Virus record (IMG/VR): IMGVR_UViG_3300025873_001679
Span: 1-26,703 of that record
DNA from: a virus
DNA: 26,703 nt
Strand: one strand, 5' to 3'
Shown: positions 697 to 22,212 of the stretch, one piece after another
How the letters are laid out: every line of letters begins with the position of its first letter
How positions within the stretch are numbered: position 1 is the first letter of the stretch
Made by a program: the position numbers and the translations under genes
The notes under the pieces: model-generated
Seen by the model: only the letters and a program-made list of their open reading frames with translations
Told to the model about the DNA's origin: nothing
Database searches by the model: none

Positions 697-717
697 GCCC
701 GTCGCTAATTTTACGTG

Positions 718-2082
718 ATGCCTGAACTATACCCGCACCAGGCCGCCGGGGTTTCCTGGCTGGCCGAGCGCCGCCGCGCTCTACTGCTCGACGAGCAGGG
801 CTTGGGTAAAACGATCACCGCGATTGTAGCCGCCGATCTGGTGCGCGCCGAGCGCGTTTTGGTCTTGTCGCCGACGGTCGTCCTGTGGAATTGGGCGGCC
901 GAGTTCCGCGCGTGGTCACCGGACCGCCGCGTGCAGGTAATCGAGAACGGGAAAACCGACATCGACCCCGCCGCCGACGTCGTCATAACGACGCACGGCC
1001 TACTACTAAGCGGTTGGGTCTATACGCAACTGCTCCGCGCGTCGTGGGATCTGCTGGTGGTCGACGAGGTCCATATGTTCCGCACGCGCTCGGCGCAGCG
1101 AACAAAAATTTTATACGGCACCCATGGACACGGTCGCGACGCGGCCGTCGTCGCGCATTGCGCGCGGGTCTGGGCGCTGACCGGGACGCCGATGCCGAAC
1201 AACGCCGCCGAGTTGTGGACCCACCTCTGGGGCTTGTTCCCCGAGCGGATCGAAGGGGCCACCAGCGGCATACCGCGCAGTTTCCACTCCTTCCGCGCCC
1301 GCTACTGCCAAACGCGAGAGACGCCTTGGGGTACCAAGGTCATTGGTAACCGCAATCTGGAGGAGCTGCGCGAGAAAATCGACGGCGTGACCCTGCGCCG
1401 ACTGAAAGCGGATTGCCTGCAAGACCTCCCGGCGATCCGCTACGAGTCGGTCGTTCTCAATTCGACGGCGAGCTCGTGGGGATTGGTAGCGGATATCGAG
1501 GACAAGCTACGGGCGGACATTCTCGCGGCAGTCGAAAACGAACTCGACCCGAACGCCACCGCCGCGCAGAGCTTCGCCGCGCTCAAGGGCCAAACCGAAT
1601 TCGCTCGGTGGCGGCATTTGTGCGGGTTGGCGAAGGTCGCCCCGGCCGCCGAATTGCTCGCGATGGAGCTCGAACATCGGGGCCTCGAGAAGGTCGTCGT
1701 ATTCGCGCACCATTCGCTGGTGCTCGCGGAACTCGAAAAGGCGTTGGCGGAATACCAGCCCGTGCGGATAACCGGCGCGGTCCCCGCCAAGCAACGGCGC
1801 GGGCTCGTCGAGAAATTCCAGAACGACCCCGAGGTCCGCGTCGCGCTCTGCCAGATCGTCGCGGGCGGCGTGGGCATCACGCTCACCGCTGCCAGCGACG
1901 TCGTGTTCGTCGAGCTGTCGTTCGTCCCCGGTGAGAACGCGCAGGCCGCCGACCGATGCCACCGCATCGGCCAGGTCGAGCGCGTTCGCGTGCGCTTTGT
2001 CGCCTTGGCCGGGACCGTCGACGAGCACGTCGTCGCCGCGTTGAAAATCAAAACCAAAATGATCCGCGAGGTGATCCAGTGA
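718..2082 (+). CDS. SNF2-family DEAD/DEAH-like helicase (superfamily 2)
   Basis: A 454-residue protein with the full set of superfamily 2 motifs: a Q-motif-like YPHQAAGV (5-12), Walker A DEQGLGKT (25-32), Walker B DEVH (116-119), motif III LTGTP (154-158), VVVFAHHSLVL in the second RecA domain, GGVGITLTAASDVVFVE, and motif VI QAADRCHRIGQ near the C-terminus. The order and the HRIGQ ending are typical of SNF2-type translocases and of the short versions common in phage replication operons. It probably remodels or unwinds DNA during phage replication using ATP. It is the first gene of the rightward operon and overlaps the next gene by 4 bases (GTGA). The start is ATG 718; an in-frame GTG at 715 directly before it is also possible. 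No strong ribosome binding site is visible. Confidence 0.9.
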   Translation: MPELYPHQAAGVSWLAERRRALLLDEQGLGKTITAIVAADLVRAERVLVLSPTVVLWNWAAEFRAWSPDRRVQVIENGKTDIDPAADVVITTHGLLLSGWVYTQLLRASWDLLVVDEVHMFRTRSAQRTKILYGTHGHGRDAAVVAHCARVWALTGTPMPNNAAELWTHLWGLFPERIEGATSGIPRSFHSFRARYCQTRETPWGTKVIGNRNLEELREKIDGVTLRRLKADCLQDLPAIRYESVVLNSTASSWGLVADIEDKLRADILAAVENELDPNATAAQSFAALKGQTEFARWRHLCGLAKVAPAAELLAMELEHRGLEKVVVFAHHSLVLAELEKALAEYQPVRITGAVPAKQRRGLVEKFQNDPEVRVALCQIVAGGVGITLTAASDVVFVELSFVPGENAQAADRCHRIGQVERVRVRFVALAGTVDEHVVAALKIKTKMIREVIQ

Positions 2083-2588
2083 CCGCCCCGCACAAACCCA
2101 AACCCGAACCCGAGGAACCCCTACCCGTGAATATCACCCTGAGTATCTCCGCATCCGAGCCCGAGGACGTCGACCGCGTCGCGCGCATCCTGCGCGACGG
2201 TTTCGGCACCGCCGTCGGTACCGATATCGTCGTCGGCGACCAGCGTTACGTGCGGACCCTGCCCGACGCGACCGCGAACGCGGCCACCGAACCGCCGGTC
2301 GAGCCGCCGGCCGAACCGCCGGTCACCGAAAAGCCCAAGCCCAAGCGCGGCCGGAAGAAAGCCGCCAAGAAAGCCGCCGCCAAGCCCGAGCCGAAACCGG
2401 AGCCCGAACCGGAACCGTCGGCCGCCCCGTCCCTCGACGACCTCCGCGGCGCTGTCCGCACCTACATCGAAACGCACGACGTCGGGGCCGCGAAGGCGAT
2501 CCTTGAGACCTACGACGCCGCGAAACTTAGCGACGTCGATCCGGCGCGCTATGCCGAACTCCACGCGGAACTCGGGGCGGCCGGATGA
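2079..2588 (+). CDS. Small acidic/basic accessory replication protein, unknown function
   Basis: A GTG start at 2079 overlaps the helicase stop in a GTGA junction and is preceded by GAGGTG (2068-2073), 5 bases upstream. This site decides the start; the frame stays open further upstream but without such support. The protein is 169 residues: an N-terminal part with a short beta-like stretch (NITLSISASEPEDVDRVARI), a low-complexity linker rich in Pro, Glu, Lys and Ala with KKAAKKAAAK, and a C-terminal helical module (LRGAVRTYIETHDVGAAKAI ... KLSDVDPARYAELHAEL). The C-terminal module resembles short helical tails found on various phage DNA-metabolism proteins. The Lys/Ala-rich linker suggests DNA contact, which is inference. 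It sits between helicase and nuclease, so a role in replication or recombination is likely. Confidence 0.75.
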   Translation: MTAPHKPKPEPEEPLPVNITLSISASEPEDVDRVARILRDGFGTAVGTDIVVGDQRYVRTLPDATANAATEPPVEPPAEPPVTEKPKPKRGRKKAAKKAAAKPEPKPEPEPEPSAAPSLDDLRGAVRTYIETHDVGAAKAILETYDAAKLSDVDPARYAELHAELGAAG

Positions 2589-3778
2589 CCGGGCACGCCA
2601 AGCTATCGCCCTCGTCCGCTCACCGCTGGATGGCTTGCCCCGGCAGCGTCGCGCTATGCGATGGCCTGGCCGACGTGTCCTCGAAACACGCCGAGCTCGG
2701 GACGTTCGCGCACGACGTCGCGGCCGACTGTCTCGAATGTGATACCGACGCGGCGACATGGGTAAATGGCAAGGCCGACAACCCCTGCACCGAGGAAATG
2801 GCGGGCTACGTACAGGAGTATCTCGACGAGGTGCGCGCCTATATGTTCGGCGGCGCGTCGCTGTTCGTCGAGCAACGAGTCGACGTCTGCGAATCGGTGG
2901 GCGAGGTCTACGGCACGGCCGACGCGATCGTGCTCTCGGGCGACGGTAAAAGCCTCGACGTGTTCGACTTCAAATACGGCGCGGGCGTTTTCGTCGGCGT
3001 CGAGGACAACCCCCAGCTCTGGGTTTACGGCCTCGGCGCGCTTGAGACCTTGCCCCGCAAGGACGGCGAGGAATCGAACCGCTGCGACGACGTCGAGGTC
3101 GTAACCGTCCACATTGTACAGCCGCGCCACCACCAGGGCGGCCACCACTGGCAGGATATCCCCGTCGGCAAGCTGCGCGCGTGGGGCGAAAAGACCCTGC
3201 GCGACGCGGTCGACGCGACCAGCATCGCCAGCGCGCCGCTGGTCGCTGGTGAACATTGCCGCTGGTGCTTGGCGAAACCTACCTGCCCGCAACTGCGCCG
3301 CGCGGCGCTGGAGCATACCCGGCACCTGTTCGAGGACGAGGACCTCGCCGTGCCTGCGAAAACTCCACCGGCTCCCGAGTCGCTGACGCCCGAGCAGATC
3401 GCGGCGGCCCTCGCGGCGTTCCCGGTGATCGAACAATGGCTCAAGGCTGTACGCGAGCACGCCTACGACCTGGCGAGCGCGGGCGCGATCCCACCCGGCT
3501 ACAAGCTGGTCGGAAAGCGCAGCATTCGCCAATGGAAAGACGAAGCCGTGACGGTGCTCGCGCTCGAGGCATTCCTGCCAGCCGGCTCGGCGATCTATGC
3601 GCCGCTAAAAGTGCTCTCGCCCGCGCAAGCGGAAAAGCTGTTGCCGAAAGGCGAGCGCGAGATCATCGCGCAGCTAACGCACAAACCGAAAAGCGGAACC
3701 ACGTTGGTTCCGGCCTCGGACAAGCGCCCGGCGGTCACGCCTGGCGACGTGTTCGGGGAACTCTCCCCCTGTGACTGA
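2585..3778 (+). CDS. DUF2800 RecB/Cas4-like PD-(D/E)XK nuclease
   Basis: A 397-residue protein starting in an ATGA overlap with the previous gene. It opens with KLSPSSAHRWMACPGS, the hallmark of DUF2800 and related AddB/Cas4-like nucleases. YGTADAIV followed by DVFDFKYG (Asp128, Lys130) gives the PD-(D/E)XK metal-binding core, and GVEDNPQLWVYGLGAL is the usual following helix motif. Cys18 together with Cys225, Cys228 and Cys234 (CRWCLAKPTC) fits the four-cysteine iron-sulphur cluster of this nuclease class. The C-terminal third is family-typical but carries no motif I can name. In phages it is regularly found next to a DUF2815 protein and a family A polymerase, as here, which suggests end processing or recombination during replication. 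Confidence 0.88.
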   Translation: MTGHAKLSPSSAHRWMACPGSVALCDGLADVSSKHAELGTFAHDVAADCLECDTDAATWVNGKADNPCTEEMAGYVQEYLDEVRAYMFGGASLFVEQRVDVCESVGEVYGTADAIVLSGDGKSLDVFDFKYGAGVFVGVEDNPQLWVYGLGALETLPRKDGEESNRCDDVEVVTVHIVQPRHHQGGHHWQDIPVGKLRAWGEKTLRDAVDATSIASAPLVAGEHCRWCLAKPTCPQLRRAALEHTRHLFEDEDLAVPAKTPPAPESLTPEQIAAALAAFPVIEQWLKAVREHAYDLASAGAIPPGYKLVGKRSIRQWKDEAVTVLALEAFLPAGSAIYAPLKVLSPAQAEKLLPKGEREIIAQLTHKPKSGTTLVPASDKRPAVTPGDVFGELSPCD

Positions 3779-3793
3779 GAATGAAAAGCTGAT

Positions 3794-3799
3794 AGGAGG
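3794..3799 (+). promoter_or_regulatory. Strong ribosome binding site of the DUF2815 gene
   Basis: A perfect AGGAGG lies 9 bases before ATG 3809. It is the clearest Shine-Dalgarno site in the rightward operon and suggests that this protein is made in larger amounts than its neighbours, as expected for a single-strand-binding-type protein. Confidence 0.8.
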
Positions 3800-3808
3800 C
3801 TTTATCCG

Positions 3809-4402
3809 ATGACTGTAGAAATCTCCCCGACCGAGATCGTAACGCCGCCGCTGCGGTTGGCGTTTCCTGCCCTGTTTGAACCCAAGCCCACGTTCAAGGG
3901 CTCGGACGAAAACAAGTACCAAGCGGCGCTCCTGATTCCCGACGACGTCGACCTCGGCCCGTTTTACGACTGCGTCAAGGCGGCGATGATCGACAAGTGG
4001 GGCAAGGCCGTAAAGCTGCCGACGCGGAGCAACCCGATAAAGTCGTGCGACGAGAAAGAGCTCGACGGCTACGCCGAGGGCTGGCACTTCATCAATACGA
4101 AATCGGGTTTCCAGCCCAACGTGATCGACCAGAAGCGCCAGGAAATCCTCGACGTCGAGCGGATTTTCGCTGGCTGTTGGTGCCGGTTCCACCTGACCGC
4201 GTACGCATGGGACCACCAGACCGGCGGCAAGGGCGTCTCGTTTTCACTAAACGCCGTCCAGCTCGTCCGCGAGGACGCCCGGCTCGACGGCCGCCGCGCC
4301 GCGACTGACGTTTTCGACGCGATCGAGGTCGACGTCGACGGGATCGGCAGCCGGGACCAGATCGACAACCTTTCGGATACCGCCGAGGACTTGTTCGGAT
4401 GA
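3809..4402 (+). CDS. DUF2815 single-stranded-DNA-binding-type protein
   Basis: A 197-residue protein with the DUF2815 pattern: an early PPLRLAFPALFEP segment, KYQAALLIP, a central GWHFINTKSGFQPNVID, then GCWCRFHLTAYAWD followed by GKGVSFSLNAVQLVRED, and an acidic C-terminal tail ending DNLSDTAEDLFG. DUF2815 proteins are OB-fold proteins regarded as phage single-strand DNA binding proteins; the acidic tail with a terminal Phe-Gly resembles the partner-docking tails of SSBs. It has its own strong ribosome binding site 9 bases upstream after a 30-base gap. Context between nuclease and polymerase supports a role coating DNA at the fork or during recombination. The function is inferred from family and context. 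Confidence 0.88.
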   Translation: MTVEISPTEIVTPPLRLAFPALFEPKPTFKGSDENKYQAALLIPDDVDLGPFYDCVKAAMIDKWGKAVKLPTRSNPIKSCDEKELDGYAEGWHFINTKSGFQPNVIDQKRQEILDVERIFAGCWCRFHLTAYAWDHQTGGKGVSFSLNAVQLVREDARLDGRRAATDVFDAIEVDVDGIGSRDQIDNLSDTAEDLFG

Positions 4403-4704
4403 GAGGTAAGCGCATCCGGCTAATGCTGCCCGAGGGTTTCCCCTCGGTGAAGTGGGGAGCCCCCGGCTCCAAGTTCGGCGGCTGGGCGATCTGCTCGGGG
4501 ATACCCGGTAAGCCGAGGCGCGGCTGCCAGTGGTTAGTCGTCGGCTTTCGTCGAACGGACGCCCAGGCCCAGAAAGCCATGCGCGAGCTACCCGCGAGCG
4601 AGGGCCGCGCTATGGTGAACCTCGGTTACGAGCGGTTGCAGCTCGTAGCCCCCGACGGTCAGGTGCGACGCTGCGCCGAGACCGAGAGGAAAATGCTGTC
4701 TTGA
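4399..4704 (+). CDS. Small protein of unknown function
   Basis: A 101-residue protein that starts inside the ATGA junction with the DUF2815 gene, so its translation is probably coupled to it. It is basic (MRGKRIRLMLPEGFP at the start), has three Cys residues (two of them around 32-43) and no membrane segment or known motif that I recognise. It is the last gene before the hairpin and T-run at 4711-4787, so it may end the first transcription unit. Codon use matches its neighbours. I cannot assign a function. Confidence 0.7.
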   Translation: MRGKRIRLMLPEGFPSVKWGAPGSKFGGWAICSGIPGKPRRGCQWLVVGFRRTDAQAQKAMRELPASEGRAMVNLGYERLQLVAPDGQVRRCAETERKMLS

Positions 4705-4710
4705 TATTTT

Positions 4711-4787
4711 GCCCGGTCGGCCCGCCGCGCGGCCCGCGAGATCCGCGCGTACCCCTCCATCCTTCATCGAGGCCGGCCGGGCTTTTT
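4711..4787 (+). terminator. Possible long-loop terminator or attenuator before the methyltransferase
   Basis: GCCCGGTCGGCC (4711-4722) pairs with GGCCGGCCGGGC (4771-4782) over 12 bp with one G-U pair, and is followed directly by five T (4783-4787). The 48-base loop itself holds the palindrome GCCGCGCGGC (4724-4733), so the structure may be branched. It lies between the stop at 4704 and the start codons at 4804/4808. A GC stem plus T-run is terminator-like; the long loop lowers confidence. It could act as an attenuator that limits methyltransferase expression. Confidence 0.4.
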
Positions 4788-4803
4788 CTCCCCCTATAGG
4801 TAA

Positions 4804-5889
4804 ATGCATGAGTTGGCTTTATGTGCCGGGAATGCCGGACTGTCCCTCGGACTCCGAATCGCTGTCCCTGGATCTAGAGCTCGCCTTGTGTGTATGGTGG
4901 AGAGGGAAGCCTTCGCCGCCGCGGACCTGGTTGGGAAGATTAAAGCGGGCACCCTGGACGACGCGGCTGTCTTTTCTGACGTCGCCACGTTCGACGGGCG
5001 ACCGTGGAGTCGAGTCCCTAATCTCCTCGTTAGCGCGGGGATACCCTGCCAGCCCTTCAGCGCAGCCGGTAGCCGACTCGGCACCGCCGACCCTCGCTGG
5101 CTCTGGCCCCACGTCGAGCGAATCATCGAGGAGTGCGAGCCCGCGCAAGTGTTCCTCGAAAACGTCCCCGGACTTGTGCGTCGCGGACTTACCCCCGTCC
5201 TACAAGGACTTACCCGCCTCGGGTTCGCTGCGGAATGGGACCTGTTCAGCGCGGCCGCGGTTGGCGCACCTCACCTCCGCAAAAGGCTGTTTGTTCTTGC
5301 TACCCACCCCGGCCGCGAGTTCGTACGGCCGGAATGCGGGGGGCCAGAATCCGGGCAAGGACCGACCAAGCCTGGAGACGATGGCCCGGAAGGGTCTACT
5401 ACCCACCCCGACCGCGGGCGACGGCAAGAGCTCAGGGTCGCGGAATCTGGAGGGGAGCAAAGCGCACAAGGGGACGAGCCTAACGGATTACGTCAAGTTC
5501 GGGAACTCGACGACGCCGCGGCTATGGCCGACGCCGCGGACGATCACGGGGGGCGCGGAAAGCGCCGAACGCAAGCAGGAGCTCGGGCGGACGGCGAGCG
5601 GCGGCGGGGATCTACAGGCGGCGGTCAAAATGTGGCCGACGCCAGCGTCGAGGGACCACCGGCACCCGAACGCGAAGCCTTACAGCGAGCGGGGCGGGGG
5701 GAAGAAGGGCGAACAGCTACCGAATGCGGTTGGTGGAGCGTTGAACCCGAATTGGGTCGAGTGGCTCATGGGATTACCGATAGGGTGGACCGGCTGCGGA
5801 GTCTCGGAAACGGAGTTGTACCGCTTTGTGCGGCGTATGCGTATCGAACTCTCGCGGCTCGTCTCGGCCTCGCAGTACCTGGAGACTGA
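4804..5889 (+). CDS. DNA cytosine-C5 methyltransferase (Dcm type)
   Basis: A 361-residue protein with the ordered C5-methyltransferase motifs: motif I ALCAGNAGLSLGLR (5-18; the usual FxGxGG is NAGLSLG), GIPCQPFSAAG with catalytic Cys82, FLENVPG with Glu119, GAPHLRKRLFVLA (motif VIII), and a C-terminal EPELGRVAHGITDRVDRLR plus SLGNGVVP (motif X, about 330-340). It transfers methyl from S-adenosylmethionine to cytosine, probably shielding phage DNA from host restriction. The stretch between motif VIII and motif X, where the target recognition domain should lie (about 170-305), is low-complexity and rich in Gly, Arg, Glu and Asp, and does not look like a folded domain. In this stretch the +1 frame instead looks coding (see 4808-5905). 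The start ATG 4804 is only 3 bases after AGG (4798-4800), which is tight. Confidence 0.85.
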   Translation: MHELALCAGNAGLSLGLRIAVPGSRARLVCMVEREAFAAADLVGKIKAGTLDDAAVFSDVATFDGRPWSRVPNLLVSAGIPCQPFSAAGSRLGTADPRWLWPHVERIIEECEPAQVFLENVPGLVRRGLTPVLQGLTRLGFAAEWDLFSAAAVGAPHLRKRLFVLATHPGREFVRPECGGPESGQGPTKPGDDGPEGSTTHPDRGRRQELRVAESGGEQSAQGDEPNGLRQVRELDDAAAMADAADDHGGRGKRRTQAGARADGERRRGSTGGGQNVADASVEGPPAPEREALQRAGRGEEGRTATECGWWSVEPELGRVAHGITDRVDRLRSLGNGVVPLCAAYAYRTLAARLGLAVPGD

Positions 5890-5905
5890 GGACTTACTGG
5901 AGTAA
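4808..5905 (+). CDS. Overlapping second-frame gene: PTP-repeat / LNPxWVEWLMG protein embedded in the methyltransferase
   Basis: The +1 frame relative to the methyltransferase is open for 365 codons from ATG 4808. It begins MSWLYVPGM, as do many phage methyltransferase-associated proteins, then has SCS/SKTSP-like Ser-rich sequence (CSSKTSPDLC) and SGSLRNGTCSARPRLAHLTS. Next come four PTP units: LLPTPAAS (5297-5320), LLPTPTAGD (5396-5422), LWPTPR (5522-5539) and MWPTPASRD (5630-5656). It closes with GALNPNWVEWLMGLPIGWT (5735-5791). From 5402 to 5629 I count G or C at 65 of 76 third positions in this frame against 48 of 76 in the methyltransferase frame. AGG at 4798-4800 is 7 bases before this ATG, better placed than for 4804. 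Its TAA overlaps the next ATG (TAATG). Function unknown; it may supply or partner the target-recognition part. It could still be a shadow whose motifs are forced by the other frame. Confidence 0.6.
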   Translation: MSWLYVPGMPDCPSDSESLSLDLELALCVWWRGKPSPPRTWLGRLKRAPWTTRLSFLTSPRSTGDRGVESLISSLARGYPASPSAQPVADSAPPTLAGSGPTSSESSRSASPRKCSSKTSPDLCVADLPPSYKDLPASGSLRNGTCSARPRLAHLTSAKGCLFLLPTPAASSYGRNAGGQNPGKDRPSLETMARKGLLPTPTAGDGKSSGSRNLEGSKAHKGTSLTDYVKFGNSTTPRLWPTPRTITGGAESAERKQELGRTASGGGDLQAAVKMWPTPASRDHRHPNAKPYSERGGGKKGEQLPNAVGGALNPNWVEWLMGLPIGWTGCGVSETELYRFVRRMRIELSRLVSASQYLETEDLLE

Positions 5906-6186
5906 TGAAACACCGCGACGGGCGTGCGCGATGCGTAAAGGGCAGGCGGGCCGACCACGTCGTAGGCTTCGCGTCGGTGGAATGCGCCGGATGTGATTCC
6001 GAAGTTACTTACGCGACCACCGAACGGCCGGCCGCGTGCCCGCTGTGCGGGACGCCGCTACCCGTGGACGATAGCGCGGTGCGGGTGGCCGACATCGCAG
6101 GCGCGTCGCGGAAAGGCGGGACGCCCGCGTTCATCGCTGGGCGGCTGGGCCGCATGGTGGAGCACAAGAACAGGCGCAACGAATGA
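5905..6186 (+). CDS. Small zinc-ribbon protein
   Basis: A 93-residue basic protein with Cys27-x2-Cys30 and Cys45-x2-Cys48 (CAGC and CPLC), the arrangement of a four-cysteine zinc ribbon with a 14-residue knuckle spacing. The rest is Arg/Lys-rich, ending in RMVEHKNRRNE, which fits nucleic-acid binding. Its ATG shares one base with the TAA of the overlapping second-frame gene (TAATG), and its own stop overlaps the polymerase start (ATGA), so it is translationally coupled on both sides. Being directly before the DNA polymerase it may act as a polymerase or modification accessory factor, which is inference. I do not recognise the exact family. Confidence 0.75.
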   Translation: MKHRDGRARCVKGRRADHVVGFASVECAGCDSEVTYATTERPAACPLCGTPLPVDDSAVRVADIAGASRKGGTPAFIAGRLGRMVEHKNRRNE

Positions 6187-8216
6187 ACCCGCGCCACGGT
6201 ATCCTCGGCGTCGACATCGAGACCTCGTCGGCCTGCGACATCAAGTTCGGCGCGTGGGCTTACAGTCAGCACCCGTCGACGATTGTCTACTGCGTCGTAT
6301 TCGCGCACGCCACGCGCTCCGGTGATTACGCGACGATCGCGTGGCAACCTGGCGACGAGCTGCCGCAGGACGTCGTCGACTACCTGGAGGACGGCGGCCT
6401 GGTGCTCGCCCATAACGTCGGTTTCGAGCGGTCGATATGGGAGAACATCCTGCGGGGGCACTGGTTCCCGCCTATCGCCGCGAGCCGGTGGCGCGATACG
6501 CAGGCCCTCGGCCGGGCGCTAAACCTGCCGTCCTCGCTCGAGGGGCTTGCCAGGGCGCTCGGATGCCCGGTGCAAAAGGACCTCGAGGGCGGGAAACTCA
6601 TGCGCGCCATGGCGACCGCGACGCCGGCTGACGGGGGCGGGTGGTCGTATCCCCACGACACGCCCGCGAATCGCGAGCGCCTGCGGGAGTATTGCGCGCA
6701 GGACGTCGCGGCCACGCTCGACTGTTATTTCCGAATGCCCGCCTTGTCGAAGGCCGAGGCGGCGGTCTGGCGGGTCGACCAGGGCATAAACTACCGCGGC
6801 GTCTACCTGGACCGAGCATTCGCCGACCAGTGTTCGGCCGTCACCGCCGCCCGCAAGCGCGAGCTCGACGACGAGGCGTTCCACGTCACCGCCGGCGAGC
6901 TCGCGAACAGTACGGCCGCGCCTGCGCTCAAGCGGTGGCTGGTCGGCAAGGGCGTCGAGCTCCCCTTGGTGGCCCGGAAGCGGGCCAACGGGGCGACCGT
7001 CGAGACAGCGTCCACCGATAAAGCGGCCGTCGCGCAGATACTTAGCGACCAGGCGCTCGCGGCCGACGTGCGCGCGGTGCTCGAAAACCGCCAGGAAGCC
7101 AACAAGGCCACCAGCCTCGCCAAGCTCGAGCGGGTCGGCCGCATGATCGGCGGCGACGGCCGGCTGCGCTTCGCGCTTCAATTCGAGGGCGCGCATACCG
7201 GCCGGTGGACGTCGTCGGGGTTGCAGATCCACAACTTACCAAAGGACAAAATGAGCCGCGAAGCGGGCGAGCTGGTGCGGGCCATGCTCAAACGCGGGAG
7301 CCTGGACGGGCTCAAGATCGCGGCCGACCAGCCGCTCGCCGCGATATCGCAATCGCTCCGGTCGGTGATCGCAGCGCCGCCAGGCCGCGAGATTATCGCG
7401 GCGGATTACTCCGCGATCGAGGCGCGCGTCGTCGCGTGGCTCGCCGGCCAGGGCGACGTCGTGCAGTTGTTCCGCGACGGCGTCGACGTCTACACCTACG
7501 CGGCCGAGAACGTCGGGAGCGCCGACCGACAGCTCGGTAAGGTCTGCGTCCTCGCGCTCGGCTACGGTATGGGCGCGATAAAATTCGCGGACACGGCCGC
7601 CGCGTGGGGTATCCCGCTGGAGCTCGGCGAAGCGCAGACAATCCAGCGCGCTTGGCGCGAGGCTAACGACAGGATCGTCGGCTTTTGGGAGACCTTAGAG
7701 GAGGCCGTGCGCGACGCCCTCGCCGATCCCGGCGAGACGTTCCTGGCTGGCCGGATCGCGGCGACGTGTTGCCGCGATTGTCTAGCCTTGCGGCTACCGT
7801 CGGGCCGCGTCCTGCGCTACTGGCGGCCGTGGACGCGGACCGCGGCGAAGCTGGTGCGCTACGTCGACGACGACGGCCATATCGCGGAGGCGGAACGGAT
7901 ATCGAACGAGGTCGGGTTCTGGGGGATGGGGCCGGACCGCCGTAGCATGGTCCGCGAGTCGACTTACGGCGGCAAGCTGGTCGAGAACGTGACGCAGGCC
8001 GTCGCGCGCGATCTGCTGGCCGAGGCGCTGGTGCGCTTGGACGGCGTCGAGCCTTACGACGTGGTTATGCACGTCCACGACTCGATCGCGGCCGAGGTGC
8101 CCGAGGGCGCGGGCGACGTCGGGGAGTTTTGCGAGGTCATGGCGGCGACGCCGCCGTGGGCTGAGGGCTTACCGATCGCCGTCGAGGGCTACCGCGACCG
8201 GCGCTTTAGGGGGTAG
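6183..8216 (+). CDS. Family A DNA polymerase with 3'-5' proofreading exonuclease
   Basis: A 677-residue protein. The N-terminal exonuclease domain shows Exo I GVDIETSS (Asp11, Glu13), Exo II LAHNVGFERSIWE and Exo III YCAQDVAATLDCY. The polymerase domain has THTGRWTSSGLQIHNLP-like sequence (AHTGRWTSSGLQIHNLP), motif A IIAADYSAIEARVVAWLAG with Asp408, motif B RQLGKVCVLALGYGMGAIKF, and motif C VMHVHDSIAAEV with His632 and Asp633. All catalytic residues for both activities are present, so this should be an active proofreading replicative polymerase. Motif C has HDS where bacterial Pol I has HDE, common in phage enzymes. There is no 5'-3' exonuclease domain. It is the last gene of the rightward operon and overlaps the zinc-ribbon gene by 4 bases. 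Six bases separate it from the convergent gene at 8223. Confidence 0.95.
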   Translation: MNPRHGILGVDIETSSACDIKFGAWAYSQHPSTIVYCVVFAHATRSGDYATIAWQPGDELPQDVVDYLEDGGLVLAHNVGFERSIWENILRGHWFPPIAASRWRDTQALGRALNLPSSLEGLARALGCPVQKDLEGGKLMRAMATATPADGGGWSYPHDTPANRERLREYCAQDVAATLDCYFRMPALSKAEAAVWRVDQGINYRGVYLDRAFADQCSAVTAARKRELDDEAFHVTAGELANSTAAPALKRWLVGKGVELPLVARKRANGATVETASTDKAAVAQILSDQALAADVRAVLENRQEANKATSLAKLERVGRMIGGDGRLRFALQFEGAHTGRWTSSGLQIHNLPKDKMSREAGELVRAMLKRGSLDGLKIAADQPLAAISQSLRSVIAAPPGREIIAADYSAIEARVVAWLAGQGDVVQLFRDGVDVYTYAAENVGSADRQLGKVCVLALGYGMGAIKFADTAAAWGIPLELGEAQTIQRAWREANDRIVGFWETLEEAVRDALADPGETFLAGRIAATCCRDCLALRLPSGRVLRYWRPWTRTAAKLVRYVDDDGHIAEAERISNEVGFWGMGPDRRSMVRESTYGGKLVENVTQAVARDLLAEALVRLDGVEPYDVVMHVHDSIAAEVPEGAGDVGEFCEVMAATPPWAEGLPIAVEGYRDRRFRG

Positions 8217-10833: not shown

Positions 10834-13800
10834 TCAGAAACAATCTTGCCAGCCTGAGCCGTTATGGCACTGGAGCTTGTTAGTGGTCGTGTTGTAGTAG
10901 ACGCTCCCGGTTTCCTGCGAGATCGCGTCTCGCTGCGAGGTCGTGCCCTTGGGTGGAATGAACGTCTGACCGGTGACGCTGCCCAGGTCGAGGATTGCCG
11001 TCGCTGTCGGGTTGCCCGACCCCCCTATCCGCATCCCGGTAGACTTCACCCGAATAAGCTCGGTGCCGGTCGTCGTGTTGAGGCTGGCCGCGACGTAGAT
11101 CCCGATAGCCGTCGAGGCGTTTACGCTGCTGTCGCCTCCCCCTAGGGACAGCTTGGATACGGAGTTGGTGTTTCTCAAGTACGCAATGGCGACCGTCTCC
11201 TCGTCGGTGTCATAGCTCGGCACGACCAGAAACCCCTTTTTCGTCGCGTTGTCTGCGGCGCTGTCCGAGACGGTCAAGTGCGGGGCCGTCCCGACTATCT
11301 CCAGGCCCCCGGTCATGGCATCTGAGCCGTCCTTGTCGAGCTTGTCGTCGGTCGATACGACGCCCTGGGCGGTGAATTGTTTCCATGAGGCCGTTTGCCT
11401 GTCGTAGTACTCCGGCGTATCGACGCTCGGCGTTACGTTGGTATTTATCCGTATCTCACCGCCGACCTTGGTAATCGTGCTTTGCCTCTGGGCGGTCGTC
11501 CCGCGGGGAATCACGAAAGCCTGGCCGCTCTGGTTGGTGTCGCCCGTCACGTTTTGCACCGCGCCCCGGCAAACGACCTCGCCAGACGACTGGCTAATAA
11601 CACCACTGAACAGCTCGATCTGATTCCCGGCGCTGTTGATCTGCTTAAGAACCAGCCCGTGGTCGTCAGTATCGACCGGGTCCTGCGCGATTATGATGGA
11701 TCCGCTATTTAGGCCGCCGTCCGTTCCCGGCGTCCCGAGGGCGAACCCGACGCCAGGCGCGACGGTGACATACGAAACCGTCGACAGCGTGTGTACGTTG
11801 GTCTGGCTGCCGATTCCGAAATAGTCCTCGAGCTCGAGGTGCGGCGGCGTGAATAAAATACCACCGTGCGCCGTGCCGCCTCTCGCCCTAGAAACGTCTG
11901 GCTGTTGCACGTAGGTCCACTCTGCCGAGGCGTTGTCCTGGCCTCCCCACGAGCGCACGGCCAGGACTTGAGGCCGGACCGACTCGTCGTCCCGCACGGT
12001 CTCGAATTCTGCGTCTGGGTTATGGGTAAATGAGGGGTACCCGTTCACCATGAACTGCGGCCGGAAAGCCATTTCGGCGAACGACTCCATGGTCGGGTGG
12101 TGGATGACGAACAGGCTCTCGTCGACCGTGGACGTGTCGCCCACCGATTCGCGTATCAGGGCTGCCCCTGGCCCGCCGCCAAGAGACTTCCCGTTGCTCT
12201 GACCCCAGTAGCCTCCCTGCCCACTACCCGGCATCGTCCACGGAGGATCTTCTTCCCCTTCCCAGCCGGGGGGAACTGATCCCGGCCCGTACCATTGTCC
12301 GGGCGGCATGGTTCCATTATCGCCACCCGGCGGCGGGGGAATGTTGATTGGCACGCGGGGAAGGGGAGCCGGTGGCCCTGGTGTTATCGGGCCGCCTTTC
12401 TTCTTGGGGTCTTCGGGCAGCAGATCCCACGAGTAAGGACCACCGCCGCGAGGCGCTCCACGGCTGCCAGTTTTCGGGCCGCTTCCTGAGTTTTGGCGTC
12501 CGGTATTAGGGCCGCCAGGCGCGCCCGTACCTGGAGCGGTGCCGGGACCGCCAGTAGTCGGGCCACCTCGGGGGGCTGTGCCTGGAGCACTGCCGGGAGT
12601 AGTCGGGCCTTTCCCTGGGGGGACACCGCCGGGGGGGTTTGGACCGGGAACGCTGGGACCACCAGTAGTCGGGCCTTTCCCTGGGGGTTTCTTGCCGCCA
12701 GTCTTCTTCCCAGGCGGGGCGTAATACGGAACCTCGGCATACCAACGCCAATGGCCTTCCTTGCTCCCGCCGGCCCACTTGTGCGGTAGGTCTTTATCCC
12801 AGCAGAGGTGTACCTTGCCCTTGAGTTTTAGAGACTTGACGTCGTGGGGATACCGCTGCCTCTCAAACAGCAACGGGCCGTCGTACTCTGAATCGTTGTA
12901 AAAGTAAGCCCCGGTCGCGATATGGCCGCTGTTCATTACGTGGCCGTCTGCGTCTTTCCCGTGTCGGTGCTTGTCGGTTTCGCTCCCTGCGTGGAACGGG
13001 CCGAAGGTTGTGGCGTGCGCCATGAAGGCGCAACCATGCGAAGCCTTCGGCGCAGGTTCCCACCGGCCGAAATTGTCGGGGGACCCGTAGTGAGTGTATT
13101 GCCCGTGTCCGCTTCCCCCGCCGCTCGAGCCACCGCCGCCGGTTAGCCCTCGCAGGCCGCCATTCCCGTCGGGGATAAATCCGCCGCCTTCTTGACCGTG
13201 ACCGCCTCCCGCGTTGCCGCCGACGTTGCCAGGATCGCCGCCGCCTTCGGGGCCGCCTCGAAAGTCTTTACCGAACGAACCCCCTCTGCCCGCTCCCTTT
13301 CCTGTTAGCGGACCTTTTTGGCCTGGGCCTCCGGTAATCGGGCCGCCGCCGTCGATCTCGGCGAAGCATAAACCGTAACCGGCCAGCTCGTCGATACCGC
13401 TCTTTCCTAATTGCCACGCGAGGGAATTACCCTGGCCTAGTGATAGCGTTGCGATGTCACCCTCTAGCCCTGTCGGCATACAAATCACTCGCATCATCGA
13501 CTGGAGCCGAGCATCGCGGCCAGCGTCGCGGGTTGCGTTTACGCAGAGCTCCCCCTCGGGCTGTAGGTCCATGACAATCGTGCCAGCGTTAGCGGGGCCA
13601 CCGGCTTCGCAGTTTACCGCGACCAGGCGCGGGTCCGCGTGCAGCATTAGCTCGTGCTGGGCCGAGTGTGACGTCCCCGGCATAACGACGACCATGGTGC
13701 CCTGCGGGATATTCGGGAAAATGTCCATCGGCCAGCCGGGATACTTTCGCCGGTAGGCTTCCGTCACGCCGGGACTTGTCCCGCCTCGGTTGAACGGGAG

Positions 13801-14148
13801 CACCTGCGACGGGCTGACGGCGTGGCCGGTCTGGCCGGGTTTGAAACCTCCCGTGCAGCCGTCCCAGGTCATACCCGCGAACGCCTGCGCCCAGGATCCC
13901 ATAGCGCGCTCGCCCCGGTCGGCGGTCTGCCAGAAAAACCAAGGGTGAATATCGCCCAGCGTCCCGAGGCCGTGGTCTGCCCCGTACTCCACCATCGAGC
14001 TCTCTGGGTCGCTGTCGTCCCCTGGGTCGGTCATTTTGACGAGCCGGCCGCCGACTAGCTGCTGGCGGATACCTTCGGGGACTCCGTACTCGTGATCCTG
14101 TAGGGGGAAGATTCCGAGCTGGGACCAGTCTGTAAAGCCTTGCGTCAT
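10834..14148 (-). CDS. Large fibre/adhesin-like virion protein with Gly-rich and collagen-like segments
   Basis: An 1104-residue protein. Residues 1-265 form a unique N-terminal domain, probably the virion attachment part. Residues 266-350 are extremely Gly-rich with GGP/GGG runs. Residues 352-475 hold a His/Trp-rich domain (FGPFHAGSETDKHRHGKDAD near 382-401) that could bind metal. Residues 477-660 are a Pro-Gly-Thr collagen-like region with repeated PPGKGPTT. The C-terminal 440 residues look like beta-rich fibre with two similar segments (AFVIPRGTTAQRQ and TFIPPKGTTSQRD), the second near the C-terminus, followed by VYYNTTTNKLQCHNGSGWQ, a motif common at the tips of phage tail fibres. It probably recognises the host surface. 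It overlaps the upstream tail gene by 4 bases (ATGA). The exact family is not recognised; the fibre role is inferred. Confidence 0.8.
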   Translation of the reverse strand: MTQGFTDWSQLGIFPLQDHEYGVPEGIRQQLVGGRLVKMTDPGDDSDPESSMVEYGADHGLGTLGDIHPWFFWQTADRGERAMGSWAQAFAGMTWDGCTGGFKPGQTGHAVSPSQVLPFNRGGTSPGVTEAYRRKYPGWPMDIFPNIPQGTMVVVMPGTSHSAQHELMLHADPRLVAVNCEAGGPANAGTIVMDLQPEGELCVNATRDAGRDARLQSMMRVICMPTGLEGDIATLSLGQGNSLAWQLGKSGIDELAGYGLCFAEIDGGGPITGGPGQKGPLTGKGAGRGGSFGKDFRGGPEGGGDPGNVGGNAGGGHGQEGGGFIPDGNGGLRGLTGGGGSSGGGSGHGQYTHYGSPDNFGRWEPAPKASHGCAFMAHATTFGPFHAGSETDKHRHGKDADGHVMNSGHIATGAYFYNDSEYDGPLLFERQRYPHDVKSLKLKGKVHLCWDKDLPHKWAGGSKEGHWRWYAEVPYYAPPGKKTGGKKPPGKGPTTGGPSVPGPNPPGGVPPGKGPTTPGSAPGTAPRGGPTTGGPGTAPGTGAPGGPNTGRQNSGSGPKTGSRGAPRGGGPYSWDLLPEDPKKKGGPITPGPPAPLPRVPINIPPPPGGDNGTMPPGQWYGPGSVPPGWEGEEDPPWTMPGSGQGGYWGQSNGKSLGGGPGAALIRESVGDTSTVDESLFVIHHPTMESFAEMAFRPQFMVNGYPSFTHNPDAEFETVRDDESVRPQVLAVRSWGGQDNASAEWTYVQQPDVSRARGGTAHGGILFTPPHLELEDYFGIGSQTNVHTLSTVSYVTVAPGVGFALGTPGTDGGLNSGSIIIAQDPVDTDDHGLVLKQINSAGNQIELFSGVISQSSGEVVCRGAVQNVTGDTNQSGQAFVIPRGTTAQRQSTITKVGGEIRINTNVTPSVDTPEYYDRQTASWKQFTAQGVVSTDDKLDKDGSDAMTGGLEIVGTAPHLTVSDSAADNATKKGFLVVPSYDTDEETVAIAYLRNTNSVSKLSLGGGDSSVNASTAIGIYVAASLNTTTGTELIRVKSTGMRIGGSGNPTATAILDLGSVTGQTFIPPKGTTSQRDAISQETGSVYYNTTTNKLQCHNGSGWQDCF
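12598..12687. repeat. 24-base direct repeat in the collagen-like region
   Basis: Bases 12598-12621 are repeated exactly at 12664-12687. A shorter 13-base match to the same core occurs at 12552-12564. They encode the PPGKGPTT units of the fibre. Runs of six to seven G lie between the copies (for example 12631-12637), a setting prone to slippage or recombination. Confidence 0.85.
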
Positions 14149-16493
14149 ATTTCACTCTTGAAAGGAACAATGCCCAGGATCCACTGGCGCGCCTCGTCCG
14201 GCAGCATGGCCGCCCGGCTGATCGTTTTCCGGGTGCCGGGGAATTCGTGTACTACCATCGTTTTAGACGAAGGGGCACCGCCTACCATGATCGTTGCGCC
14301 GCTCATGTTGCCCTTGAGTTGCATCCCGTAGCCGTCGGGCATCCGGCCAGCTATGCGGCCCATAAACGAATCGGCAAACGGCGCGATAGCTTCGGCGGCC
14401 AGGGACTTAGCGTAGGGTACAACTGCGCGTTTTTCGTTTATCCAGGTGAAGCCGCGAAGCTCTCGGGTGCCTTTCAGTAGCCCCGCGTCATTTATGTCGA
14501 GGTCACCAAGGAGGCCGAGCATTTCCTTGACCGTACGCTCGGGGTCGTCGTCGGTCATGTCGCGCGTTAGGTCTGGGTCCCATGCGAACATCGCCGTAGT
14601 CTCGGACGGAGAAACGAACAGGTCGAGCTCGGGGCCGTCGCCGTCTTGTAGCCGGAACTCGGTACGGAACAGCGCGCTTATATCCTCGGCCTCGATCTCC
14701 TCGACGTGGTACTGGTTCTTATTGTTCGGGGCCGCCGGGACGATGGTAAGTAGGACCTTTAGCTCCATTTGATCCTTCAAGAACAAAGCGTTTATATGCC
14801 CGGTCATTATGATACCCGCGCCCATGGCCCGCTGTTCCTGCATGGACAGCGAGCGGTCGGGGACGTGGTCCTCCCCGGCTGAATTCACCACGTTGCAAGG
14901 GACGATCGACTGCACGGTGCCGTAGGGCGACGTCTCCCAGCTCACGCGAAACACGCCGTTATCGCGGTCGATAAATGTGATCTTCGCCGGGCCAGCCGGC
15001 TGGGTCGCCATGTTCTCGCTCTTTTCCCCGCCGGTCAGTGGGTCGACAGCGTCGGGGTCGGGGACCGTGGATATATTCCGCCACTGGCCCTGCTTGTCGG
15101 GGTGTTTCCGCGACGCTATGCGCTCACCCTTGACCGTGGGAATAACGCACCACTGGCCCATGACCAAAGCGAACGCACGCTGGCCTGTTACTGGGTCGGC
15201 GGCTCCCCCGACGCGCGTGGCTTTGAGGTCGCGTATTCGTTCCATGTAGGCTGGATTGATTCGGAAGGTCTGGCGGAAATGCTGTCTTAGGGCCTGGACC
15301 CGCAGCATGATATTAGCGAAATCGTCCTCGCCTGCTGTTCCCCGCTTGTTATCCCCTCCCAGTACCCCCTCCAGGTCGCCCTTTAGCCAATGCCTCCGAA
15401 TCGTGTCGAACGTCCAAGGTAGACAGCCCTCGGGCTTACCATTCTCGGGGTCCTCCATGGCTTCGAGCCATAGATCGACCGAGACCCACGTCCCGGCGGG
15501 GACCCGGTGGATTTTAAACTCGGAGCCTCCACCACCCCCCGGTCCGACGACGCTGCGAATCTTAAGATTCGTGATTGGGTCGACGGTGGGTAACACGTTC
15601 TCGAGGTAAGGGTCTTCGCGGTTAAACTGGACCGCGGTGTTGTCGTCGTAGTCGTCCTTGAAGCTGAACACGGCCTCGACCTCCCGCGTGAAATGGACGT
15701 TCACCTTAGACGGCCGTATCGCGGAGCGGTCTACGTGGACCCCGTGATCCCCGGCCCAGGTCGCGGGGCTTTTCTTTAGTACTTTATCGCCGTATGTTTT
15801 GGCGGCCTTAAAATCCGTGCCGTCGATAACGCGAGTCATGCCGCCCGTATCGACGTAGACCGTTGCGCCAGGCACAAACGCCAGGGCCCGCGCGATAGCT
15901 ACGTCGCCCTGGTCACGGATAACGAGGTTCTGGATTGAGAACTCGCCGCCCTCGTCCAAGGGCCAAGACTCCTCGAACCACGTATCCCCACCGTCCCCCC
16001 CGTCGACGACCATTACCGCGTCTAGCAGGTTTTCGATTACTCTCTTAGCCGTCCACTTGTGGTCGGTGTCGAGACTGAACTCCTTAAAGTCGTACACGTC
16101 GACAGTGATATCGAGCTCGACGGGAACGTGATCGTAGAGGGTAGTACGGTCGCCGCTTTTCTTGGGTATGTTGTAATCCCGCGAAACGAACGTGTAGGCC
16201 CACATCCAGCGCCGGTCGGCCACGACGAACGAGACGCGGTTGGGGCTGTCGCTCGGTATCTCGTGCAGGATGTAGACGCCTTGGACCTTCTGTATACGGT
16301 TCTCGGCGTCTACGATTTCCAAGGTGAGCGGTTCGCCTATCTGCTGCTGTAGCTTGCCCCACGACTTTCGGTGGACCTGAAAGACGGTACTGTAGGGCTG
16401 CGTCCCGGTTACCAGTTTCCACATAACCGGACCTTTAGCCGCCAGCGAGACGCCGCCTAGCTTCACCGTGGACTTAATCGCTCGATATGACAT
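14145..16493 (-). CDS. Large tail/baseplate hub-type protein
   Basis: A 782-residue protein from ATG 16493. The N-terminal 110 residues are beta-rich (STVKLGGVSL, PLTLEIVDAENRIQKVQGVY), followed by WTAKRVIENLLDAVMVVDG and DVAIARALAFVPGATVYVD, then GGMTRVIDG. The pattern 'helical segment, then hydrophobic strand, then VYVDTGG' is seen in phage tail hub proteins. A Gly-rich loop (GPGGGGGSE) lies near residue 320. The C-terminal 250 residues include a long acidic region and GFTWINEKRAVVPYAKSL. No lysozyme or peptidase motif is visible. It sits between the 478-aa tail protein and the fibre, with which it overlaps by 4 bases, so it probably joins the tube tip to the fibre. The role is inferred. 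Confidence 0.75.
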   Translation of the reverse strand: MSYRAIKSTVKLGGVSLAAKGPVMWKLVTGTQPYSTVFQVHRKSWGKLQQQIGEPLTLEIVDAENRIQKVQGVYILHEIPSDSPNRVSFVVADRRWMWAYTFVSRDYNIPKKSGDRTTLYDHVPVELDITVDVYDFKEFSLDTDHKWTAKRVIENLLDAVMVVDGGDGGDTWFEESWPLDEGGEFSIQNLVIRDQGDVAIARALAFVPGATVYVDTGGMTRVIDGTDFKAAKTYGDKVLKKSPATWAGDHGVHVDRSAIRPSKVNVHFTREVEAVFSFKDDYDDNTAVQFNREDPYLENVLPTVDPITNLKIRSVVGPGGGGGSEFKIHRVPAGTWVSVDLWLEAMEDPENGKPEGCLPWTFDTIRRHWLKGDLEGVLGGDNKRGTAGEDDFANIMLRVQALRQHFRQTFRINPAYMERIRDLKATRVGGAADPVTGQRAFALVMGQWCVIPTVKGERIASRKHPDKQGQWRNISTVPDPDAVDPLTGGEKSENMATQPAGPAKITFIDRDNGVFRVSWETSPYGTVQSIVPCNVVNSAGEDHVPDRSLSMQEQRAMGAGIIMTGHINALFLKDQMELKVLLTIVPAAPNNKNQYHVEEIEAEDISALFRTEFRLQDGDGPELDLFVSPSETTAMFAWDPDLTRDMTDDDPERTVKEMLGLLGDLDINDAGLLKGTRELRGFTWINEKRAVVPYAKSLAAEAIAPFADSFMGRIAGRMPDGYGMQLKGNMSGATIMVGGAPSSKTMVVHEFPGTRKTISRAAMLPDEARQWILGIVPFKSEI

Positions 16494-16495
16494 TG

Positions 16496-17932
16496 CTACA
16501 GGCCCCAGTGCTTACCGCCGCCACTGCCGCCTTTCGGCCGTTTGTGGAATCGCTCGACGACTGTCTCGGTGAGGATCGATAGCTCGATCTGGTCGCCGGT
16601 TTCCGGGTCGCCGATGTATTTCCGCGTAACCTGGCTGGTGTTCTGGACGATATTCCAGCCGGACGTACTGACGTTTTTACCCCCTTCGACGCCCTTTATC
16701 GGCCCGGCCGCGCCGCCGGTCGGGTCTTCACCGAGGCGTCTTTTTGGTGTTTCGAGCCCGACGACTACCGCAGTCCGCGAGCATATGCGCTCGACTACGG
16801 CGAAACCTGGGTCGGCCTCGGCGACTAGCTCGTCGTCCTCGAATACCGGGGTGTAGTCGATGTTCCGTTGCTCTCGGTAGGCTACGGATTGCGAAATCTC
16901 CACCGGGGCCCCGCCCTTCGATGACTGGTAGAGGAACTGGAGCGAGACCGACATACGTTTAGAGGTCTCGTCGTAGCCGACCCGTTTGTCCTCGATGCAA
17001 AATACGGACGGCTCGTAGTTGGCCTCGAACAGCTCGGTGATATGCGGCCGGACCAGGGTCTCGTATACGTCTTGCAGGTTCGTACTCGCGCCAAGGGTGG
17101 CGACGTCTACCGCGCAGTCGTATGTCGCGATGACTCGGCGCAAACGGAACAGGCCTGGCCGGCTGTCGCCGGGGTGCTGGCTCGTGTCGGTGAATACGAT
17201 ACGGTGATCGCGTATGTTGGTATCGTCGTGGACGCCTGACGACTGCTGCGCCAGGAGCTCGACGTATTGCCGCGAGAAACTACAGGTGTCGTTGTTCCTG
17301 TCTTCGGTAAAGGCTTCGTCGACGAGCTCCCAGGCTGCGGTTTCGGATATGCCGTCGAGCAGGGTGCCCGATACGCTGTCGAATCCGTGCGTTTCGTGTT
17401 GGTACTGCGCCGACGCTTTCCGGTCTGCCACCGCGGTATAAACCCCGCGCATACTAACGATCCGCTGGCGGCCGGCTTCGTAATCGACGTGCATTTCCAT
17501 ATCGCGCAGGCCGTTTTTCGATGATTCTTCGGCGGGGAGCTCGGCCGATATATTGATTGTGTAGGCCCGGCTAAACCCTATGTCGCTCTCGCGGTCGCCG
17601 GCCTTGGCGATCGAGGACGTGCTGTTAAGTAGCGTAGTCCCCGCCGTGTAGGTCCAGGCGGTGCCGTCGATATCAATTTTCAGGCTGCGGTCGCGCTTTC
17701 TAAAGGCTGTCTCGAGCGCGTCGCTCAGTTGTTGCAGGCCGTTCGAGTCCGCGTCGTAACTCGTGCCGACGACGACCACGTCGAACACCAGGCGCAGGCC
17801 GTCGTAAGACTTGTCGATAACGTAGGGGCCGTGGAGCTGGTAGACGTCTGAGGTACCGCCTACCTGTTCGCCCGCCGCAGGGGAGGCGACGTTGGTGGCG
17901 TAGGTAATCGTAAACTTATTGTTAACTGCCAT
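16496..17932 (-). CDS. Tail-tip/distal tail-type structural protein
   Basis: A 478-residue protein from ATG 17932. It begins with beta-strand-rich sequence (KFTITYATNVASPAAGEQVG, YQLHGPYVIDKSYDGLRLVF, DVVVVGTSY), and further on has SAELPAEESSKNGLRDMEMH and VDYEAGRQRIVSMRGVYTAV. A repeated all-beta pattern is compatible with a distal-tail or tube-like fold. The C-terminus is a Gly/Lys-rich flexible end (RPKGGSGGGKHWGL). It follows the two small tape-measure-position proteins, where a distal tail protein normally lies, and is 2 bases from the hub gene. The assignment is by gene order and fold type; no diagnostic motif is seen. Confidence 0.7.
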   Translation of the reverse strand: MAVNNKFTITYATNVASPAAGEQVGGTSDVYQLHGPYVIDKSYDGLRLVFDVVVVGTSYDADSNGLQQLSDALETAFRKRDRSLKIDIDGTAWTYTAGTTLLNSTSSIAKAGDRESDIGFSRAYTINISAELPAEESSKNGLRDMEMHVDYEAGRQRIVSMRGVYTAVADRKASAQYQHETHGFDSVSGTLLDGISETAAWELVDEAFTEDRNNDTCSFSRQYVELLAQQSSGVHDDTNIRDHRIVFTDTSQHPGDSRPGLFRLRRVIATYDCAVDVATLGASTNLQDVYETLVRPHITELFEANYEPSVFCIEDKRVGYDETSKRMSVSLQFLYQSSKGGAPVEISQSVAYREQRNIDYTPVFEDDELVAEADPGFAVVERICSRTAVVVGLETPKRRLGEDPTGGAAGPIKGVEGGKNVSTSGWNIVQNTSQVTRKYIGDPETGDQIELSILTETVVERFHKRPKGGSGGGKHWGL

Positions 17933-17935
17933 ACG

Positions 17936-18499
17936 TCACTTCCAGAACTGCAAAGCCTCGGCGAGTTTATCTACGGCCGTCGCGAGCATTCCGCTTATAC
18001 CTGTCATAATGCGCTTTAGAATGTCGTCGATTTTCGGCCCCGAGAAATCCCCATGCGCCTCGAAGCGCGAACGCCCCTCCTCCTCCTCGCGATATTCGGC
18101 GACGCGCTGATCGAAGAAGTTTTTAGCGCCTGCTGGGATCGCGTTCTCGACCCCGGCCTGGTAGCCGAACGCCTGGATGGTTTCCTCGCGGGCTTTTCGC
18201 GTTGCCCGCGCTTTGTCGTCCAGGTCGCCGAGAAAGAACTCGTTAAGCTGCGCGCCGATTGCACTAAAAGACTCGCCGACCACGTCACCGACGCCCGACG
18301 ACGTCGCCCCGCGGACCGCCGCCATACCGACGCCGATACCGCCGCCGAGCCCGACCGCGCCCATACCCTTACCGACAGCTCGACGAACACCGCCGGCGAT
18401 ACGGCCGCCGGTCTTTTGCGCCCGCTTGGCTAGATCGCGGAGGTCGCCCTTCGCCTGGCGGGTGTCGAGCTTTAGTTTTACTTCTGCTTGGTCGGCCAT
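17936..18499 (-). CDS. Short Ala/Gly-rich tail protein, tape-measure position (second of two related proteins)
   Basis: A 187-residue protein from ATG 18499. The N-terminus ADQAEVKLKLDTRQAKGDLR looks like the start of tape-measure proteins. Residues 30-72 are Gly/Ala-rich and hydrophobic (GKGMGAVGLGGGIGVGMAAV), a possible membrane or pore segment. Residues 81-98, IGAQLNEFFLGDLDDKAR, match 10 of 18 residues of a segment in the neighbouring 278-residue protein. The C-terminal half is charged and helical with a last amphipathic helix (ISGMLATAVDKLAEALQFW). The helix content and gene position suggest a tape-measure or tail-injected protein, but the length is far below the usual several hundred to thousand residues. 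Function is inferred. Confidence 0.7.
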   Translation of the reverse strand: MADQAEVKLKLDTRQAKGDLRDLAKRAQKTGGRIAGGVRRAVGKGMGAVGLGGGIGVGMAAVRGATSSGVGDVVGESFSAIGAQLNEFFLGDLDDKARATRKAREETIQAFGYQAGVENAIPAGAKNFFDQRVAEYREEEEGRSRFEAHGDFSGPKIDDILKRIMTGISGMLATAVDKLAEALQFWK

Positions 18500-18502
18500 G
18501 GG

Positions 18503-20567: not shown

Positions 20568-20574
20568 GGTTTTC

Positions 20575-21129: not shown

Positions 21130-21132
21130 TTA

Positions 21133-21729: not shown

Positions 21730-21732
21730 GGC

Positions 21733-22209: not shown

Positions 22210-22212
22210 GGG

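Follow-up and report, generated by a model that had tools for sequence, protein, structure and literature searches.

Two overlapping reading frames at one methyltransferase locus

Can a single 1.1-kb stretch of phage DNA be under selection in two reading frames at once, and, if so, do the two products belong to one enzyme? The question is raised by a C5-cytosine DNA methyltransferase (MTase) locus in an entire IMG/VR virus record of 26,703 bases, referred to here as the window. In prokaryotes, few cases of long overprinted genes on the same strand have been established. A first-pass annotation had described two protein patterns in different frames of this locus. We checked coordinates and translations and confirmed that both frames are open and that the motifs lie where they were placed (Table 1). 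Frame A begins directly downstream of a TAA codon (4801-4803) and ends with TGA. Frame B, in the +1 frame, runs from ATG to TAA, and its frame is open upstream back to 4649. B starts with MSWL (4808-4819), followed by four PTP units (first bases at 5297 to 5630) plus LNPNWVEWLMGLPIGWT, as had been described. The paired readings are indeed the same DNA, apart from the shift in frame: MADAAD in A (5524-5541) reads as LWPTPR in B (5522-5539), and EPELGRVAHGITDRVD in A (5743-5790) reads as NPNWVEWLMGLPIGWT in B.

Table 1. Features of the overlapping methyltransferase frames in the window (TRD, target-recognition region)
Feature	Coordinates	Strand	Basis
Frame A ORF (ATG 4804 to TGA 5889); putative alpha polypeptide, C5-cytosine methyltransferase with motifs I-VIII and X, 361 aa	4804..5889	+	PF00145, phrog_363, AF2
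Frame B ORF, +1 (ATG 4808 to TAA 5905); putative beta polypeptide with MSWL start, PTP-unit TRD, and motif IX, 365 aa	4808..5905	+	phrog_1008, stop avoidance, substitution tests
ATGCATG, the neighboring start codons of A (4804) and B (4808)	4804..4810	+	Start spacing kept in relatives
Motif I-VIII half: A strongly constrained; B open, weakly constrained	4804..5301	+	z scores, substitution rates
Predicted TRD region in B: LLPTP 5297, LLPTP 5396, LWPTP 5522, MWPTP 5630 (B residues 165, 198, 240, 276)	5297..5734	+	Substitutions in relatives; single-chain fusions
Motif IX in B: GALNPNWVEWLMGLPIGWT	5735..5791	+	Conservation over 86 sequences; hhalign
Motif X in A: RVDRLRSLGNGVVP	5782..5823	+	AF2 helices; renewed selection on A in relatives

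Stop avoidance indicates selection on both frames

We compared stop codons in the +1 frame of 95 nonredundant phage loci with the number expected from permutation of A's synonymous codons. Overall, 82 stops were observed versus 431 expected; the counts were 65 versus 298 in the motif I-VIII half and 17 versus 133 in the TRD half. Stop avoidance was absent from the +2 frame of the same loci (630 observed versus 600 expected, and 598 versus 657, in the two halves) and from the +1 frame of flanking ORFs (2977 versus 2879). With an expectation of at least 2 stops, 62 of 86 MTase loci were free of +1 stops, versus 0 of 294 flanking ORFs. Loci retrieved with B are biased toward an open B; hence, the 36 loci retrieved by A alone weigh most, and they had 4 stops versus 116 expected, some of the A-query patterns containing peptides from the A-frame TRD. 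Seven bacterial MTases that have no B showed no +1 avoidance (181 versus 176.7). In the window alone, synonymous permutation of A predicts 3.9 B stops for the motif I-VIII half and 0.8 for the TRD half; neither half contains any (p = 0.005 for the former).

When B-synonymous codons were permuted instead, 243 A stops were expected in the TRD half and none was observed, indicating that A is read through to motif X. Since stops are avoided in both directions, both frames are held open along their entire length. It had been suggested from the window that selection preserved both frames over about 1.1 kb, and the stop permutation bears this out together with the substitution tests in relatives (see below). 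Neither a B-frame dN/dS near 1 nor frequent B stops, which the first-pass annotation had named as evidence to the contrary, was found in relatives. We conclude from these counts that the 1.1-kb stretch is readable in two overlapping frames through selection.

The dominant frame changes along the locus

We then mapped the constraint on each frame along the locus. Among divergent pairs, the similarity of A given B had a z score of 11.3 in motifs I-VIII and 2.4 in the TRD-IX region, and that of B given A had z scores of 1.9 and 4.7, respectively; third-frame controls gave 0.65 and 2.3. When the window was compared with its relatives, A scored 10.3 and 2.3, B scored 3.2 and 4.2, and third-frame controls scored 1.0 and 2.6. 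Both in relatives and in the window, the second frame is selected to remain open and is conserved beyond the first, which is what overprinting entails.

Substitution counts derive from relatives, because the window had no close relatives among those fetched. In closer relatives (138 nonindependent pairs), B-only changes stood at 0.118 and A-only changes at 0.030 in motifs I-VIII; the values in TRD-IX were 0.013 and 0.191. Bin by bin, 18 independent pairs likewise showed the dominant frame switching from A to B and then back to A at motif X, where B-only changes were 0.130 and A-only changes 0.034. The corresponding values for flanking genes were 0.187 versus 0.023, based on just 7 gene pairs. 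Base composition moves in the same way: in the first half of the window locus, the G+C-rich codon positions are A1 and A3 (0.72 and 0.67), in the TRD half the G+C-rich position is A1, which is B3 (0.81; A3, 0.60), and in flanking genes G+C is 0.82 to 0.88 at codon position 3. This move of the G+C-rich position along the window agrees with the switch in frame dominance. The proposal of overprinting along the whole length thus stands as far as both frames being open, but constraint is unequal, with protein-level selection switching from A to B and back to A. What selection does in the nondominant frame is mainly to exclude stops.

Frame A resembles a catalytic domain, and frame B carries a predicted recognition region and motif IX

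Residues 5 to 172 of A matched PF00145 (3.3e-25), residues 6 to 167 matched an NCBIfam model, and residues 3 to 349 matched phrog_363 (3.8e-47); PADLOC matches of A were to generic MTase models. A has the motifs I, IV (PCQ), VI (ENV), and VIII and the SAM-binding large domain of a C5-MTase with the PF00145 fold (GIPCQPFS, 5038-5061; FLENVPG, 5152-5172; LRKRLFVLA, 5275-5301). Foldseek found this large domain to be like those of M.HhaI and M.HaeIII over ~174 columns (M.HhaI, E = 2.1e-14). AlphaFold (AF2) modeled residues 1 to 170 and 327 to 353 of A confidently, with helices at 327 to 335 and 340 to 353 in the motif X region, and gave residues 171 to 325 a pLDDT of mostly ~40. In hhalign, the A profile aligned to single-frame actinophage MTases over motifs I-VIII only. 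A chain that holds the TRD together with motif IX, as expected of a C5-MTase with this fold, is not what A encodes; motif IX sits in frame B. The earlier statement that A carries every C5-methyltransferase motif is therefore incorrect, motif IX and a foldable recognition domain being absent from A. The models indicate that A is a large domain only, without a foldable TRD, and A appears to evolve nearly freely between motifs VIII and X.

B matched phrog_1008, named DNA methyltransferase, at 1.8e-29. Both patterns had been said to occur among database proteins, and they do: A in phrog_363 and PF00145, and B in phrog_1008, phrog_27243, and phrog_26627. B had no match in Pfam, NCBIfam, or PADLOC, and comparison with the PDB by sequence and profile gave nothing real. 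Over 86 sequences, L312 and M321 of B are invariant and N313, P314, V317, E318, L320, G322, P324, and T328 are near invariant. The B profile aligned exactly at motif IX of actinophage MTases that have motifs I-VIII, IX, and X in one frame (hhalign prob 97; E = 1e-10). The (near-)invariant L, P, M, G, and P fit motif IX of M.HhaI (LxPxxxxxxMGxP). Since AlphaFold of B alone was poor (pLDDT, 57.7), we infer the TRD fold. Together, the alignments indicate that B supplies the TRD region and motif IX that A lacks; the B pattern, once described as independent, appears instead to be the missing half of A's enzyme.

Related loci, fusions, and other layouts

B-frame relatives were found in phages of Acidovorax, Paenibacillus, Lacticaseibacillus, and Synechococcus; in the relatives read out, B is the +1 frame of an MTase, and an Acinetobacter phage retrieved with A has the same layout. 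Among 123 IMG/VR loci retrieved by either frame, A and B are in the +1 relation in nearly all, down to ~37% G+C. Depositors annotated A, B, or both, and in many records just one of the frames is annotated. The enterobacterial relatives N15 (gp58), TOK-001, and E21 have a corresponding layout with an internal B start. In bacterial genomes, B lies in +1 at 73 of 80 loci retrieved via A's motif IV, which is not a fraction of all C5-MTases, since the confirmation alignment was centered on the window's family. This set spans Proteobacteria, Actinobacteria, Firmicutes, Bacteroidota, Verrucomicrobia, and Planctomycetes, among others; 7 of the 80 loci are without B.

The same parts also occur in other arrangements. 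In Gordonia phage Leonard gp5 and Mycobacterium phage Silvy gp53, motifs I-VIII, PTP units, motif IX, and motif X form a single polypeptide. In Phanphagia 65/66, Gruunaga 90/89, and Andrew 43/44, they are divided over two overlapping +1 genes, both of which carry a methyltransferase or methylase annotation in Andrew and Phanphagia. At three loci (L067, L085, and L104), A ends after motif VIII and B holds the TRD, IX, and X. Streptomyces phages (L138-L151) have motifs I-VIII, IX, and X in A and a long +1 ORF with PTP units only, ending just before motif IX. This third layout is hard to understand, as it would place the recognition units on a polypeptide of their own. The PTP region in these various loci is mainly +1 relative to motifs I-VIII, with IX and X in either frame.

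Two loci deserve separate mention. L106 is near identical to L103 and has a frame change near the ENV motif that moves the rest of the MTase into the B frame; this is either a sequencing error or a natural broken copy. At L155, a prophage of E. coli ECCTRSRTH03, RefSeq lists two partial pseudogene pieces, yet frame A is free of stops throughout.

A probable two-polypeptide enzyme and the alternatives

The start codons of A and B are -5 to +4 nt apart in ~68 of 74 loci with a full-length B, mostly as ATGAATG, GTGAATGTGG, or ATGTG and usually after a Shine-Dalgarno-like sequence. The most probable reading, in our view, is a single C5-cytosine DNA methyltransferase that is made as two polypeptides, alpha from A and beta from B, which then assemble. 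Ribosomes would initiate separately at two start codons 4 nt apart. Alpha would form the large domain that binds SAM and carries out catalysis (motifs I-VIII and X), with a fast-evolving linker separating VIII from X, and beta would provide the target-recognition region, with its PTP units, and motif IX. Opposite the conserved motifs of alpha, the first half of beta may serve mostly as a leader. The two chains would then associate into an active enzyme that methylates the phage genome. With separate initiation, the first half of B must stay open though weakly constrained, and A must stay open through the fast-evolving TRD span to reach motif X. We infer translation of both frames, assembly, and activity, along with a biological role that may be self-protection or evasion of restriction. 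Counting against two polypeptides are the weak Shine-Dalgarno sequence at the window's starts, B's missing Pfam, NCBIfam, and solved-structure matches, the poor model of B alone, and the Streptomyces phages with motif IX in A, which imply that motifs are not always divided alike. We considered whether coupling of a stop codon to the start of the next gene could signal B translation and set this aside as not diagnostic, since B couples in the window and in Alfacinha3 and A couples in most loci.

Under programmed +1 frameshifting, translation would instead begin in A and move into B once past motif VIII, so that motifs I-VIII, the TRD, and IX end up in a single chain. The switch of the dominant coding frame at the motif VIII/TRD boundary fits such a shift, as do the natural in-frame fusions of Leonard and Silvy and the three loci at which A stops after motif VIII and B continues through motif X. 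However, frameshifting leaves unexplained why B is free of stops opposite motifs I-VIII at most loci, why its start codon is conserved, and why A is open across the TRD span, and motif X, which lies in A at most loci, would need a second shift back; we regard it as unlikely. Nor do we think that A encodes a methyltransferase in full while B is functionally unrelated to it, for example as an inhibitor or a partner with its own job. The first half of B is somewhat constrained beyond A (window z score, 3.2 versus 1.0 in the control), as such a protein might be, but A lacks a foldable TRD and changes almost freely in that span, the conserved end of B is motif IX, and natural fusions join both parts in one enzyme. 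This makes two unrelated proteins very improbable, and on the motif IX alignment and the single-chain fusions we rejected B as an unrelated phage protein.

It might also be argued that B is untranslated and open merely through codon composition and constraint on A; B has no match in Pfam or among solved structures, and the many records with only one annotated frame would accord with this. Yet stop avoidance is confined to the +1 frame, being absent from the +2 frame and from flanking genes, the seven MTases lacking B show none, and B evolves far more slowly than A in the TRD half in relatives. On the +2-frame, flanking-gene, and B-less MTase controls, we discarded an untranslated B as extremely improbable. 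The two-protein modification system proposed in the first-pass annotation is the best reading, with the products themselves being putative.

Comparison with known systems

In M.EcoHK31I (E. coli, YGGCCR), the beta polypeptide is said to be short (176 aa) and is reportedly translated from an alternative frame within the alpha gene. This two-polypeptide C5-MTase has motifs I-VIII and X in the large polypeptide and only motif IX in the small one (PMC3404938). The window is alike in its encoded frames, A having motifs I-VIII and X and the second frame having motif IX. B, which lies +1 within A and is selected in relatives, would also share the alternative-frame trait. In contrast to M.EcoHK31I, beta in the window begins just 4 nt beyond the alpha start, spans nearly the whole of alpha, and carries a constrained TRD, whereas the TRD of M.EcoHK31I was predicted in the large subunit; the two were compared by layout. 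M.AquI is split after motif VIII, with the TRD and motif IX in the second polypeptide (PMC3404938). The window resembles it in this division and in the content of its second frame but differs in having motif X in A, apart from motif IX, and in its fully overlapping frames. Gruunaga 90/89, Phanphagia 65/66, and Andrew 43/44 resemble M.AquI, with +1 overlaps. Paenibacillus phage Diva gp49 is an MTase of the A type that contains a +1 gene of the B type (DIVA_50, "g49 internal gene" in the depositors' annotation); unlike in the window, the B start is internal and not beside the A start.

A falls into phrog_363 and B into phrog_1008, two families that share the name DNA methyltransferase, and we found no statement in the literature searched that these families overlap on the same DNA. 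Similarly, no description of an overprinted phage C5-MTase was found in that literature, whose coverage excluded subscription journals. New relative to the literature searched, as far as shown here, are the near-full-length overlap with paired starts, the quantification of selection for each frame and each region, the placement of recognition in beta, and the breadth.

The locus would represent a long overprinted pair with strong statistical support in relatives and a clear logic, one enzyme in two frames, distributed over many bacterial phyla by sequence survey. If this is true, phage and prophage annotations of "DNA cytosine methyltransferase" often miss the specificity subunit, an annotated ORF tested alone would lack activity, and prediction of site specificity should use the other frame. 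The location of the recognition domain in M.EcoHK31I-like enzymes may need revising, and the pair could offer a natural system of two genes in which to study evolution when both frames are constrained. We put forward, tentatively, a broader possibility: a large undescribed class of C5-MTases, in phages and bacteria of many phyla, may have its recognition subunit in the +1 frame of the catalytic subunit. In dual-start members, the N-terminal half of beta would then be a functional domain and the whole 1.1 kb doubly coding in terms of protein, and many "complete" database C5-MTases would be half enzymes with an unannotated partner frame.

Surroundings of the locus

At 5903-5907 (TAATG), the B stop shares bases with the start codon of the following ORF (5905-6186), which encodes a zinc-ribbon-like protein of 93 aa; the A stop lies 16 nt before the B stop. 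Replication genes on the + strand (715-8216) encode a helicase, an exonuclease, an Enc34-type single-stranded DNA-binding protein, and a family A DNA polymerase. Genes after ~10.8 kb (10834-26697) are on the - strand and include one for a major-head-like protein (24263-25249). The record is thus laid out as a phage with divergent modules. At 4711-4785, a strong hairpin, GCCCGGTCGGCC...GGCCGGCCGGGC, is followed by TTTTT (-42 kcal/mol; z = -2.1); it lies ~20 nt upstream of the methyltransferase starts and looks like an intrinsic terminator.
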